IMG/VR virus record: IMGVR_UViG_3300045119_000107 | Location: 1-41,233 of that record | DNA: 41,233 nt | Reading direction: 5' to 3' (one strand) | From: a virus | In this document: one piece after another, positions 5,399 to 39,608 of the stretch | Position numbering within the stretch: the stretch's first letter is position 1 | Layout of the letters: the number at the start of each line of letters is the position of its first letter | Notes under the pieces: model-generated | What the model was told of the DNA's origin: nothing | Databases searched by the model: none | What the model saw: the letters and a program-made list of their open reading frames with translations, nothing else | Translations under genes and position numbers: made by a program

Positions 5399-5413
5399 CT
5401 TTCAACAAATCGC

Positions 5414-5443
5414 TTGACACCTAACTACTACAGGGGCCACACT
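5414..5443 (+). promoter_or_regulatory. promoter with embedded TACTACAGGG operator-like word
   Basis: TTGACA at 5414-5419 and CACACT at 5438-5443 with an 18-bp spacer. The spacer holds TACTACAGGG at 5426-5435, so a protein bound there would cover the RNA polymerase site. The sequence from TCGCTTGACAC through CTAACTAC matches the promoter at 36026 almost base for base. It drives the gene at 5482, whose AAGGGAG lies in a leader of about 30 nt. Confidence 0.7.
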
Positions 5444-8381: not shown

Positions 8382-8433
8382 AACGAAATGGACCGCCCCC
8401 TGTAGTAAATCTACTATAGGGGGCGGTTTCGTT
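8382..8433 (+). terminator. terminator hairpin built from two inverted TACTACAGGG words
   Basis: The stem CCGCCCCCTGTAGTA (8393-8407) pairs with 8412-8426 around loop AATC; one G-U wobble is tolerated on plus-strand RNA. AACGAAA (8382-8388) and TTTCGTT (8427-8433) extend the stem after a TGGA bulge. The left arm holds an exact TACTACAGGG on the minus strand (8398-8407) and the right arm a one-mismatch copy (TACTATAGGG, 8412-8421). It lies between the ssDNA-binding-like gene and the primase-helicase. Confidence 0.8.
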
Positions 8434-8444
8434 CTAGCGAAAGG

Positions 8445-10226
8445 ATGAAAGTGGGTCGGGAACTAGACCACTATCTCGACACCATATTCGGCCAGCAAAC
8501 GGGGTACGTATATGTGGCTACGAAACACATTACAGGTGGATTCTCACAGGATTTCTATCAAGTCCCAAATCAACGTGAGGAACTCCGCACGCGTATTCTC
8601 TCTCGATTTAATGAGGGGGAAACGTATGTCTGTCCATCTCTATTCGCAGAGCCTTCGGGGAAGAAAGATTATTGTCTCGGTAGTCAAGTCGCCTGGGTTG
8701 ACTTCGATGCAAACTTCCCGCACGATTCTTGGCCCCAGGAAATACCAGTACCAAGCATGGTCATACAAACCTCGGGCCAGCGAAACGTCCACGCCTATTG
8801 GAAGCTTGACACTTTCCTTTCCGCCGGTGAAGTCGAAGAAATCAACCGCAGACTCACATATTTCTTCGGAGCCGATATATCTGGATGGGACGCTAATCAG
8901 CTCCTGCGACCGCCCGAAACAAAAAACCACAAGAAGAACACGGCAGTAAAACTACTTACTACAGGGAGCGGCGAAACTAAAAGGCTGGCAGACTTCATCG
9001 GACTACCTAGCCCTCCGGCGCTTCCTAAAAACATCGAGCAGCTTGCAATCCCACCGATTGAAGAGGCTCTCCAACACATTACTTGGCCGAGTAATCTCAA
9101 AGAGCTTTACGAGAACGGCCTGCCAGAAGGCCGACGGCATCAGGGAATGTTTGCGCTCGCAGCAGGGCTGGCTGAATTGAATGTCCCCCCGCCATTCATT
9201 CTGTCGGTTCTGCTGCACTCAGACAACAACGCTTTCCACAAGTTCGATCAGCGTCCAGATCAGAGAGTACGGATTGTCGAACTGGTAACCCGCGCCGTTT
9301 TGAAAGTCAACGATAAGAAAGCCAAAGAGAAAGAAGCACCCTTATGGCTACCGAACACGATAACTCAGCTGCTGACAGCCGAGTACAAGATGGAGTGGTT
9401 ACTGGCTCCGTATATCCACAAGACGACGTGTGCGATATTGAGCGGCCCACCTGGTGTGGGGAAGTCCTTAATGAGTCTTTCCTTAGCACAATCCCTTGTA
9501 CTCGGTGGAGAGTTTCTGAAGATGAAAGTGAATCGGAAATTGAGGATTGGTTTTATTTCAATGGAGATGGATGGGTACGAATTACACGCCGTACTTTCGC
9601 CCCAGGTTTCGGTACATTCTCAGGAGCAGAGAAATTTACTCGACGAGAACCTACTTATCCTACCCTTTGGTGAACCGAAGTTCTATAGTGACAAAGAAAC
9701 GGAAAGACTTCTCTTTCAATTTGTGGGGGACAACAAACTCGATGGGATATTCGTGGATTCCCTCTCGTCCACGACTCCTGGCGATTTATCTTCGGAGAAA
9801 GAAGGGAAGTTCATCTTCGAGTTGGATTCTAAGTTACGAGCCAGATTTGGGTGTTTCACTTGGTATATTCATCACAACCGCAAAGCGCAAGCCGACAACA
9901 AAAAACCAAATAAGCTTGCGGACCTACATGGTACCGTTCATATACAATCTAAACCTAACACCGTTCTTACACTTTGGCCGCTCGATCCGAAAGGGACACG
10001 AATCCTTTTTAAACCACTTAAGATCAGATCAGCCGTCCAACCAGACGAATTGACAGTGAGTCGAAACGATTTCCTGCACTACGAAATCAACAAATCAGTG
10101 GGACCGTCCAACATGGGAGGCGTTACCGTTGTTGAGAAAGAAGAAGTAGATGATATCGGAAGTGACGGTGAGAACCCACCTAGTGACGGAGGAGAACTTC
10201 CAGGAGATAATATGTCAGGTTTCTAA
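8445..10226 (+). CDS. primase-helicase (PrimPol-like plus RepA/RecA-fold helicase)
   Basis: A 593-residue two-part replication protein. The N-terminal part looks like an archaeo-eukaryotic primase: VAWVDFDAN with D86 and D88, then HAYWKLD with H117, then NQLLRPPETKNHK (151-163), a signature of plasmid and phage primases. The C-terminal part is a RepA-type hexameric helicase with Walker A GPPGVGKS (334-341), FISMEM after it and Walker B DGIFVDSLSS (433-442). It should prime and unwind the phage origin. AAAGG abuts the ATG at 8445; GTG at 8451 is better spaced, so the true start may be two codons later. It contains one exact TACTACAGGG (8957-8966). Confidence 0.85.
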   Translation: MKVGRELDHYLDTIFGQQTGYVYVATKHITGGFSQDFYQVPNQREELRTRILSRFNEGETYVCPSLFAEPSGKKDYCLGSQVAWVDFDANFPHDSWPQEIPVPSMVIQTSGQRNVHAYWKLDTFLSAGEVEEINRRLTYFFGADISGWDANQLLRPPETKNHKKNTAVKLLTTGSGETKRLADFIGLPSPPALPKNIEQLAIPPIEEALQHITWPSNLKELYENGLPEGRRHQGMFALAAGLAELNVPPPFILSVLLHSDNNAFHKFDQRPDQRVRIVELVTRAVLKVNDKKAKEKEAPLWLPNTITQLLTAEYKMEWLLAPYIHKTTCAILSGPPGVGKSLMSLSLAQSLVLGGEFLKMKVNRKLRIGFISMEMDGYELHAVLSPQVSVHSQEQRNLLDENLLILPFGEPKFYSDKETERLLFQFVGDNKLDGIFVDSLSSTTPGDLSSEKEGKFIFELDSKLRARFGCFTWYIHHNRKAQADNKKPNKLADLHGTVHIQSKPNTVLTLWPLDPKGTRILFKPLKIRSAVQPDELTVSRNDFLHYEINKSVGPSNMGGVTVVEKEEVDDIGSDGENPPSDGGELPGDNMSGF

Positions 10227-20669: not shown

Positions 20670-21997
20670 TATCCCATCACCACCGCTCTGTACCCCACTC
20701 CAAGATTTGGATTGTAACGAATCGTTACTGTGTTCACAGTAGTAGCGTCCCAATCTACTTCAACAGCAGAAAATGGAGTGGAGCCATTCAACACACTTAT
20801 ATGCACATCTCTTGTATTTAAATTGTGAGTAATTACTTCTGGACTCGCAGTTCCTGTAAGAGCCACTGCAAATTTCTGAACTCCACCTGCGGGACCAGTT
20901 GGCCCCGTTGGTCCTGCTGGACCTGTTGCACCTGTATTACCAATTGGTCCTTGTGAACCTGTTGCACCAGTTGCTCCTGTTGTACCAGTATCTCCCTTTG
21001 CACCACCAACTGGAATAATACTGATACTAGTATTTACACCTTGAACTGTACGAGTATCACTAGAATAAGCAGCGCTTTGAATTACATCTCCAACTTGAAG
21101 ATCAACCAGTAGTTGCGCTACCTTCGTAGTGTATGCGTTAGCGCCTCCAGTGAAAGTAACAGTGTTGTTAGCAACAACAGATCCACTACGCATATGAACT
21201 GCGTAACCAGTGAAATTGGCTAGCGTTGTTCCTAGAGTAGTTATTGCAGCTAGAACTAAATAACGACCGGCAACTTGACACTGAATATCTGTGGGTGGTG
21301 GACCACCAGTCGCTACGAGTGAGAACCCACTTGATTTAGTATTAGCAGCACTAAGAGTTAGAAGCGTATAGGTACTAGGAGGAACGGTTGTATTTCCCGA
21401 AGCCCTACTAAAGAAATACGCTGACAAGAATGCAGTAGCGGAATCTTGTCCTGGTGGACCTTGTGTACCAGTATCTCCTTTGTCACCTTTTGGACCTTGG
21501 GGACCAGTAGCTCCAATAGGACCAGTTGGACCAATTGGACCGGGAACAGTTGAATCCGCTCCAGTTGCTCCAGTTGGACCTGTTGGTCCTTGTGGACCTT
21601 GTGGTCCAGTATTTCCGGGCGAACCTTGTGAACCAGTTGAGCCAGTATTTCCAGTATCACCTTTTGGACCCTGCGGACCTGTATTTCCAATTGGACCTTG
21701 TGGACCTGTAGGACCAATTGGTCCCTGTGGTCCAGTTGGTCCTGGCGGTCCAGCTTGTCCAGCAGCACCTGCATGAATATGATCTTCTCTTGCAGGAGTA
21801 TCTGAAATTCCTGGAAATGGCACAGTGCCAAGCGGTTGTGGATCAACCGGCATGTGGAAAGCCAGACCGAAACGATGACGCTCCGGAAGATCGTGATGAA
21901 ATTGATCTAGCTGGATTGACGTTGCTGTATAAAACGTCTCATCTGCCGCTAGGGGATCGTTTGACCCACCATCACTCTTCGGAGGTTTGTCGCTCAT
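20669..21997 (-). CDS. collagen-repeat tail fibre protein
   Basis: A 442-residue fibre: about 80 residues of N-terminal domain, a long Gly-x-Y collagen-like rod (about residues 80-190), one jelly-roll-like module of the same kind as those in the next gene (ending [11 protein letters not shown]), a second collagen rod, and a small C-terminal beta domain ([20 protein letters not shown]). The rod codons favour GGA/CCT-type A/T endings. It is probably trimeric and attached to the neck or tail. It overlaps the upstream 77-residue gene by 26 bp. Confidence 0.78.
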
Positions 21998-36825: not shown

Positions 36826-36910
36826 TGTTAGGCCGGCCTAACACTCTGTGTTAGGCCAGCTTAATATGTTGTGAATGGTAAACTAAATACTACAAGTTAA
36901 GCTAACCTGA
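36826..36910 (+). promoter_or_regulatory. tandem TTAGGC palindromes and an iron-box-like site
   Basis: TGTTAGGCCGGCCTAACA (36826-36843) is a perfect 18-bp palindrome. Its right half also pairs with GTGTTAGGCC (36848-36857), giving a 10-bp stem. A second, imperfect palindrome TTAGGCCAGCTTAA follows at 36851-36864, centred 23 bp away. At 36892-36910, AAGTTAAGCTAACCTGA matches the actinobacterial DtxR/IdeR box TTAGGTTAGGCTAACCTAA at 14 of 19 positions. A TACTACAAG word variant (36889-36897) abuts it. Confidence 0.5.
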
Positions 36911-38247: not shown

Positions 38248-38378
38248 TGTGCGAATGCTGCGGCAATAACGCAACGCATTATCTAATCGACGATAACTAC
38301 GAGGCGCAGTTATGTCGGCGGTGCGCTTATGAATTGAAAGCGCATTGCGATTCGGTAAAGCGAATTCAATCCCGATAA
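38247..38378 (+). CDS. zinc-ribbon-like microprotein
   Basis: A 43-residue protein with CECC (2-5) and C23-x2-C26, then C34; the layout CxxC..CRRC is that of a treble clef or zinc ribbon. It is translationally coupled (TAATG) to its upstream partner and shares the element HYLID/DYLID with it, so the two may be duplicates. Function unknown. Confidence 0.58.
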   Translation: MCECCGNNATHYLIDDNYEAQLCRRCAYELKAHCDSVKRIQSR

Positions 38379-38391
38379 ACAAGTCGGAGTT

Positions 38392-38454
38392 CGAATAGTC
38401 GATATCGACTATTCGCCTCCGGCGACGCAACGCGCACGCAAAGCGTGCGGTCGC
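38392..38454. repeat. 24-bp palindrome followed by GC-rich hairpin
   Basis: 38392-38415 is a perfect 24-bp palindrome (half-site CGAATAGTCGAT). It is followed by CGCACGC (38433-38439) with GCGTGCG (38443-38449) around AAA, extended by GCGAC (38422-38426) with GTCGC (38450-38454). It may be a terminator without a U-tract for the zinc microproteins or a protein binding site. Confidence 0.55.
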
Positions 38455-38607
38455 GGGAATGATTCGTGTCAAGCAATTTAAACTAGAAACTTTAACGTTA
38501 CTGCTGGGCGTGCCGAACTAAAGTAAAAGAAACAACTCGAGTAACTAAAGCAAGCAATAGTTGTGCTGCTAGTAACACATACTAGTAGGTAGAAAACAGG
38601 TGGTCAT

Positions 38608-38780
38608 AGATTTACTACAGGGCTTGGTGTTTCGACACTGGATTGTGAGCATTCTGAAACTGGTCCACCGATGGGTCTAAAGACCCATCGATGGTCCATT
38701 AGATTTCAGAAACAACTGATGCAAGAGACTCACTGGATTTCAGTGCATAACCGCAGGTCACCACCCCTGTATGATCTACT
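38608..38780. repeat. dyad region with operator words and nested inverted repeats
   Basis: An exact TACTACAGGG at 38613-38622 (context TAGATT...CTTGGTG) faces an imperfect inverted partner at about 38757-38780 (reverse reading TAGATCATACAGGGGTGGTG). Between them lies a long interrupted dyad: TTCTGAAA (38652-38659) with TTTCAGAA (38704-38711), and inside it CGATGGGTC (38669-38677) with GACCCATCG (38682-38690) around TAAA. CACTGGATT is repeated directly at 38636 and 38731. The region stands just upstream of a winged-helix gene. Confidence 0.55.
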
Positions 38781-38881
38781 GATACTGTATGGACCACACC
38801 ACTGTCAGTAGCACACACCTCATTTGGTACCGGACCACCTACTTTGACACGCAGAATCCAGCTTCCTATCCTTTAAATCGC

Positions 38882-38910
38882 TTGACGCCTAACTAACAAC
38901 AATATATCCT
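38882..38910 (+). promoter_or_regulatory. promoter, TTGACG-17-TATCCT
   Basis: TTGACG at 38882-38887, TATCCT at 38905-38910, spacing 17 bp; the -35 context TCGCTTGACGCCTAACTA repeats that of 5414. The start site would fall at or next to the ATG at 38918, giving a leaderless mRNA for the winged-helix gene. Confidence 0.75.
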
Positions 38911-38917
38911 GACACCC

Positions 38918-39538
38918 ATGCCCAACAATATGCGTGGTTCACGAGGACAACTAATCCTAAAGTTCCTCGAAGACAACTATCCTAAGACCTATTCGAAGAA
39001 TGAACTAGCGGCCGCTTTGAAACTGCCGCCTATCTCGACCTACCGAGTCTTGACACAGATTCTAGTGCCGAGCGGTGGAGTCCTAGCAGATACTTCACGC
39101 TCACCTATTCACTACCAGTATATCAAGGGTGCAAAAATTAACATCTGGCCACCGCTTCAACTACTGGACAATCCACAGACAGAAGTCGTAATCAAACCAC
39201 AGTTCGATAATCTCCTTGCCATTTCAACTGATTACAAGACACCACCAATCAAGTTGCCGATCGCTGTCATCTACGCAGCTATCTTCTGCATGGAGATTGA
39301 TGATCCCGAAGAACGAGCGAACTACTTGGAATGGCTTGAAGCGACCGCGATCAAACTCCACCAGTATTACTTAGCATACCGTATCATCCGAACGATTCAA
39401 GCATTGCCATTGAAAGACAGACGCATTGAGAAGTTTGGTATTAGTAACAAGCTACCAAATCAACCAAAGGATGACGAAATGAGCATGACCATCCTATTCA
39501 AGCAGGAGCTTAAAAGCTTCCTGAAACAAATCCCTTGA
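38918..39538 (+). CDS. winged-helix DNA-binding protein, candidate phage regulator
   Basis: A 206-residue protein. Residues about 8-65 look like a winged helix: helix RGQLILKFLEDN, then SKNELAAALKLPPISTYRVL as helix-turn-helix, then a hairpin wing (GGVLADTSRSPIHYQY). The rest is helical and may dimerise. The gene is leaderless behind its own promoter and just downstream of the dyad region with the TACTACAGGG word. By position it is the best candidate in this window for the protein that reads the word and for self-regulation; this link is inference. Confidence 0.7.
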   Translation: MPNNMRGSRGQLILKFLEDNYPKTYSKNELAAALKLPPISTYRVLTQILVPSGGVLADTSRSPIHYQYIKGAKINIWPPLQLLDNPQTEVVIKPQFDNLLAISTDYKTPPIKLPIAVIYAAIFCMEIDDPEERANYLEWLEATAIKLHQYYLAYRIIRTIQALPLKDRRIEKFGISNKLPNQPKDDEMSMTILFKQELKSFLKQIP

Positions 39539-39563
39539 CACGTATATAGCCCACATATATGCT
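39535..39563 (+). promoter_or_regulatory. promoter, TTGACA-17-TATGCT
   Basis: TTGACA at 39535-39540 overlaps the stop codon of the winged-helix gene; TATGCT at 39558-39563; spacing 17 bp. It should drive the genes from 39609 through the helicase. The terminator hairpin of the upstream gene overlaps the start site. Confidence 0.78.
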
Positions 39564-39582
39564 TGCTTTGCAAGCAGTTTTT
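39560..39582 (+). terminator. intrinsic terminator overlapping a start site
   Basis: TGCTTGC (39560-39566) pairs with GCAAGCA (39570-39576) around TTT, followed by GTTTTT. It stops transcripts of the winged-helix gene. Transcripts from the promoter at 39535 begin inside the stem and so escape it. Confidence 0.75.
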
Positions 39583-39608
39583 CATCCAACCGGAAAGGTA
39601 GAAACGAA

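Follow-up and report, generated by a model that had tools for sequence, protein, structure and literature searches.

A leaderless winged-helix gene behind a phage-private array of inverted repeats, and a separate genome-wide word as candidate priming sites, in a phage grouped with the actinobacterial podoviruses

The locus described here is best read, at roughly even odds (a probability of about 0.5), as a phage-private autoregulated cassette, in which an array of inverted repeats would supply the binding sites of a winged-helix protein; the short word at its left edge would belong to a separate system, most plausibly the priming sites of the phage's own AEP-type primase. That is, a winged-helix gene with its own promoter and terminator lies behind about 290 bp of inverted repeats; these would serve as a cluster of binding sites for the product, P0001, which would most likely control the early promoter of its own gene and perhaps transcription nearby; from phage to phage, protein and sites would change jointly within a constant layout. 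The word would stand outside this circuit, read by some factor common to the phage group. The window, meaning the whole stretch of DNA analysed, is an IMG/VR virus record of 41,233 bp. Features of the locus and its immediate surroundings are as follows.

38371-38623, + strand: conserved noncoding stretch, 82.5% identical to the relative G005; the blastn alignment stops at 38623
38392-38415, no strand: perfect palindrome of 24 bp, CGAATAGTCGATATCGACTATTCG, inside the conserved noncoding stretch; 22 bp kept in G005
38590-38875, no strand: dyad-rich, phage-private array, a candidate operator or iteron array for the winged-helix protein; fold z -2.4; its word is close to TGGTCCA
38612-38622, - strand: the dispersed word, present here as TTACTACAGGG on the + strand and CCCTGTAGTAA on the - strand; the window has about 27 such sites
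38652-38712, no strand: long interrupted palindrome, best arms 38661-38678 and 38681-38698
38763-38772, no strand: imperfect inverted partner of the word, CACCCCTGTA, of which the half CCCCTGTA alone matches the word
38882-38910, + strand: promoter TTGACG-17-TATCCT, a 9/12 match, predicted to give a leaderless transcript; -35 position kept in both homologues
38918-39538, + strand: gene for the winged-helix DNA-binding protein (206 aa, predicted leaderless), with an N-terminal winged helix and a helical C-terminal part
39535-39563, + strand: second promoter-like site, TTGACA-17-TATGCT, directly after the gene
39560-39583, + strand: terminator-like hairpin and T run, closing the winged-helix gene

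The window is placed with the actinobacterial podoviruses because it carries matches to a terminase and a P22-like portal, DNA polymerase A, an AEP-type primase-helicase, a PD-(D/E)XK/Cas4-like nuclease, a Sak4-type protein and a WhiB gene; the host is probably a soil actinobacterium. Judged by terminase, its nearest named relatives are MW202795, the Arthrobacter phages around Jasmine, Cellulosimicrobium phage DS1 and Microbacterium phage Shocker. A primarily lytic lifestyle is reported for the Arthrobacter phages that were described together with Jasmine (PMC5513430). Two further relatives, G005 and G006 (terminases 97% and 60% identical to that of the window), repeat the order of the locus: word, hairpin, some 300 nt of dyads, leaderless promoter, winged-helix gene.

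An earlier note on this DNA had proposed a promoter feeding a leaderless gene, and both proposals gain from the comparison with these relatives. As a motif the promoter is not above chance (three such sites in the window, 3.1 expected), and the motif score alone would be insufficient; it is credible because in both homologues TTGACA lies as far from the start codon as the -35 box does here, and only 5 of the 566 ATGs of the window have a -35 box at that distance. The gap between the -10 element and the ATG is 7 nt in the window and 6-7 nt in the homologues, a leaderless spacing common to all three loci, whose upstream sequences are otherwise unalignable. The shared -35 position and short gap make it most likely, judging from sequence, that the gene is leaderless. 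The promoter has an extended -35 element, AAATCGCTTGACAC, and members of this family are found in the window at 2014, 5413, 38881 and 39534 on the + strand and at 38473 on the - strand; at 5413, a copy of the dispersed word (site 5430) occupies the spacer between -35 and -10.

P0001 itself gives no Pfam match; one member of its three-sequence family, A1, matches HTH_11 (6e-6) and HTH_IclR (1.3e-3). The AlphaFold model of P0001 is confident for about residues 5-70 and puts the winged helix at 4-70, with helices at 4-19, 27-33 and 38-49 and strands at 55-58 and 65-68, and scores Z up to 11.9 against winged-helix structures. Family profile match and model together give a three-helix HTH with a beta wing, and bear out the winged helix named in the earlier note; the rest of the chain is helical, with low model confidence and no assigned fold. 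The best structural matches are Z-alpha domains; the equivalents of Asn173 and Tyr177, Z-contacting residues of ADAR1, do not appear to be kept in P0001 (alignment by eye), and a generic winged helix is likelier than a Z-alpha domain. P0001 has no match among PDB sequences at E up to 10 and no recognisable homologue in any known phage of the phage collection. Single-sequence and alignment searches of viral and bacterial contigs returned G005 and G006 only (45% and 24% identical), so that the family counts three sequences, two of them cut by contig ends. Searching by the upstream neighbour gene of 284 aa brought no further loci with the region; the A1 profile found no significant match among the candidate HTH genes of MW202795, Shocker, DS1 and Jasmine; and no homologue is detectable in 26 of the 28 relative records searched, several of them roughly 45 kb long.

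Homology to G005 stops right after the dispersed word (38623), upstream of the dyad region, and the dyad regions of G005 and G006 have no sequence similarity to that of the window. Each of the three loci has about 300 nt that fold better than shuffled sequence (z -2.4 in the window; -3.8 and -4.1 in the equivalent regions, L042 and L043), opening with a hairpin of some 50-60 nt. In the window, the long interrupted palindrome singled out by the earlier note is genuine: the arms of 18 nt match at 89%, with extra pairing out to 38652-38712, and the 41 kb contain only three other long near-perfect inverted repeats, where six mononucleotide shuffles gave none. A further long inverted repeat (TTAGGCCGGCCTAACACTCTGTGTTAGGCCAGCTTAA) lies at 36828-36864, in a noncoding stretch ahead of the early genes. 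The exact word said to bracket the palindrome is also there (TTACTACAGGG at 38612-38622, + strand), and is strongly over-represented in the window. Its imperfect inverted partner is present at 38763-38772, but is a half match (CCCCTGTA) with no counterpart seen in the two homologous loci (read by eye), and is probably a chance or decayed site rather than a functional one.

Each locus has a short word of its own. An unbiased scan of the whole record puts the densest private-word cluster at the locus both in G006 (CATACGA; CATACGAA) and, tied with one other scan window, in G005 (TGATATC/GATATCA); the own-word clusters of L042 and L043 were matched in 0 of 60 shuffles each. The clustering of repeats beside the gene, which an iteron-type origin would also show, is significant in these two and marginal in the window, where clustering of GGTCCA was matched in 2 to 10 of 60 shuffles and where a coding repeat at 21.5 kb has the word at a higher density than the dyad region. 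The coding region 21300-21700, probably a tail-fibre gene, has dense GGTCCAATTGGTCC-type repeats, which make it the part of the window richest in GGWCC. The private word, different at each locus, would be a better candidate for the target of P0001 than the dispersed word. Protein and private array are read as evolving together because the winged-helix proteins are only 45% and 24% identical where the terminases are 97% and 60% identical. DS1 is a possible fourth case of an array with a winged-helix gene: its CCTAGGG repeats flank a promoter-like site, left and right, and the gene that follows codes for 210 aa and has weak wHTH matches. In Jasmine (L083), a CCTAT/ATAGG repeat array with large dyads lies at 45200-45370, in a long noncoding region beside an Lsr2-like gene, and is a possible origin.

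The layout had been taken as that of an autoregulated repressor or of a replication-initiation control point. The leaderless gene, its own promoter, the adjoining dyads and the recurrence of this layout in two relatives leave both as fair options; a lysogeny repressor fares worse, as no Phage_integrase or Resolvase match is found in 12 records of the group (records possibly incomplete), which weighs against it. The main rival to autoregulation makes the dyad region a replication origin and the winged-helix protein its initiator, which would act on iteron-like repeats and open the DNA for the primase-helicase. Most of the array lies upstream of the promoter, not across it, an unusual arrangement if the protein simply represses its own gene, and one that resembles an iteron origin more; the noncoding stretch 38248-38917 is long, lies in the early region and has several hairpins; the phage brings its own replication enzymes; and similar noncoding repeat arrays occur in Jasmine and DS1. 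We nevertheless regard an origin as doubtful: P0001 offers no clear initiator fold apart from the one winged helix, there is no skew signal separable from gene orientation, and the DS1 array straddles its promoter, so that an operator fits it better and autoregulation is favoured over an origin. It is quite unlikely that the region works not as DNA bound by a protein but as a transcript, a structured regulatory RNA; the strong predicted folds and similar hairpin placement in all three loci would suit such an RNA, but Rfam has no match for the region, neither sequence nor helix can be aligned between loci, and the repeats are clustered short words of the kind typical of protein sites.

The dispersed word has a different distribution. 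In the window there are 11 exact copies of TTACTACAGGG, and 34 matches at up to 2 mismatches, where 7.3 are expected and 0 of 100 shuffles gave as many; the sites, about 27, occur in both orientations and are mostly intragenic. Counts of sites in the same and the opposite orientation to transcription are 11/16 in the window, 10/18 in MW202795, 17/6 in Jasmine and 26/19 in Shocker, with no consistent orientation across the four. In nearly all relatives examined, the top-enriched 8-mer is a variant of CCCCTGTnGn; about 20 relatives have their own variant, most of them with no detectable winged-helix homologue. The variant is CCCTGTAGTA in the window, CCCCTGTCGCG in G018 (58 sites), CCCCTGTAGCA in G027 (66 sites), CCTGTGGC in G023 (56 sites), CTGTGGGA in Jasmine, CTGTCGCT in DS1 and CTGTAAAGG in Shocker. 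Shocker (L085) has a second dispersed word, TTAGGGTA, with 15 sites genome-wide, mostly in short intergenic gaps; it looks like a start-associated repeat, distinct from CTGTAAAGG.

These sites are conserved, 18 of 21 in comparison with G005 and 8 of 13 with G019 (background 10%), and they change in concert: the base after CCTGTAGT is A in 20 of the 27 window sites and T in 12 of the 15 G019 sites, and six of the eight homologous sites retained between the two have changed from A to T. Conservation and concerted change therefore indicate a sequence-specific factor acting genome-wide. The spacing of the words hardly departs from random: in a few genomes it is, at most, a little more even. Inside genes there is a codon-phase skew, which we attribute to the avoidance of TAG stop codons and of Cys codons, and both strands are about equally used.

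The proposed reader of the word is the primase, and two further features are needed here.

8392-8427, no strand: two facing dispersed-word sites in a near-perfect hairpin that directly precedes the primase-helicase gene; the same sequence in G005
8445-10226, + strand: AEP-type primase with DnaB/RecA-like helicase, the proposed reader

Evidence for the primase consists of a phrog DNA primase match (3.5e-15), a weak match to a PrimPol AEP in the PDB, and DxD and SxxRNxHxYW motifs (read by eye). In G018, words also occur within an intergenic hairpin before the primase gene. Searching the named phages for the primase-helicase led to siphophages with different annotated virion genes, and in all seven examined that have a related primase module a TGTGG-core dispersed word is among the top words: GTGTGGCC, 41 times in Teagan; GGCCACAC, 31 times in Schubert; TGGTGTGG in Troje and Gibbous; GGGTGTGG in FF47; GTGTGGCT in Serratia phage Opt-155; and CCTGTGGA in ctuI7215. 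FF47 (L097) has a strand bias of 19:1 for GGGTGTGG across its genome, which may reflect coupling to replication direction (unidirectional replication) or codon bias. Two phages served as controls. CF418P1, which has a terminase homologue and is not among the primase matches listed, has no such word. From TM4 the method recovered a GGATAGGAGCC-type repeat, presumably the start-associated sequence known for this phage, and so it does pick up real repeats; with a primase of its own and a mild enrichment of TGTGG, TM4 is no clean negative.

The AEP primases NrSPol and ORF904 use GTG as template signal, best as GTGG or GTGA, and begin the primer just upstream of it (PMC8718748; PMC12205980); such a start would land on the C run of CCCCTGT. 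Since TGTGG-core words accompany the primase and AEP primases prefer GTG/GTGG, the word may plausibly be the priming site of the phage's own AEP primase. A tentative generalization, somewhat short of an even bet, is that in the actinobacterial podoviruses and the siphophages sharing the module a lineage-specific word (CCCCTGTnGn or xTGTGGx) on both strands would be the AEP primase template site, a private priming code that co-evolves with the enzyme.

The primase cannot be told apart from its companions in the shared replication module, since these genes travel together, and no single protein stood out as reader in the distance correlations. Another protein of the replication and recombination module (the Cas4-like exonuclease, the Sak4-type annealing protein or a resolvase) might read the word, for example as a Chi-like or nicking site: these genes co-occur with the word across the group, and among the distance correlations with the word that of Sak4 is the best (rho 0.65). 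This we think conceivable rather than probable, as these proteins have no known specificity for such words, unlike the AEP primases with their GTG/GTGG preference. Very improbable is the remaining account, in which the word would be a stoperator-like operator and P0001 an immunity repressor, as in cluster A mycobacteriophages. About 27 asymmetric sites, shifted variants in related phages like the stoperators of the L5 clade (PMC6550527), and one site within a promoter spacer at 5430 recommend it; against it stand the lack of orientation bias, the intragenic location, the 12 records free of integrase or resolvase matches, the word-bearing relatives that have no detectable P0001 homologue, and a word that is the same in G005 although the winged-helix protein there is 45% identical. 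Much the same facts speak against the 'master regulator' that the earlier note had built on the word. The word is probably not the operator of this protein; it should be removed from the regulatory reading of the locus and treated as a separate, more interesting genome-wide system.

With the same gene and layout in three phages, and with protein and presumed array rewritten in each, the cassette offers a natural series for studying the co-evolution of protein and site. Something other than transcriptional silencing is needed to explain genome-wide sites that are strand-independent and intragenic and that shift in concert. Should these be priming sites, sequence would directly show where lagging strands start in hundreds of phage genomes, and the phage genome alone would suffice to predict the specificity of an AEP primase.

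Several known systems resemble parts of this picture. The stoperators of the L5/Bxb1 repressor in cluster A (PMC6550527) are likewise dozens of short asymmetric sites spread over the genome, with a consensus shifted between relatives; the word here has no orientation to transcription and is mostly intragenic, neither an integrase nor a resolvase turned up, and the HTH gene close by does not vary with the word. The repeats of cluster O mycobacteriophages (PMC4351075) are similar in having more than 30 dispersed copies, some intragenic, with function unassigned and in phages that lack an integrase; those are palindromic 17-mers (17 bp), whereas the present word is asymmetric, about 11 bp long and variable between relatives. 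Plasmid-type Rep/iteron origins and autoregulated winged-helix operators share with the cassette clustered repeats directly upstream of a winged-helix gene; the repeats here are imperfect, inverted and private to each phage, and the protein matches no known Rep or repressor family. Jasmine and related actinobacterial podoviruses (PMC5513430) have a related terminase, primase-helicase and polymerase, and share with the window a WhiB gene, a dispersed CTGT-core word and a noncoding repeat array; their words differ, and a winged-helix homologue is not detectable in them. For NrSPol/ORF904, genome-wide enrichment and concerted evolution of sites, the features of the present phages, are not described in the available portions of the papers (PMC8718748; PMC12205980), and the primase here is known from sequence; what they share is short asymmetric template words of the GTG/GTGG kind, in a phage that encodes an AEP-type primase-helicase fusion.
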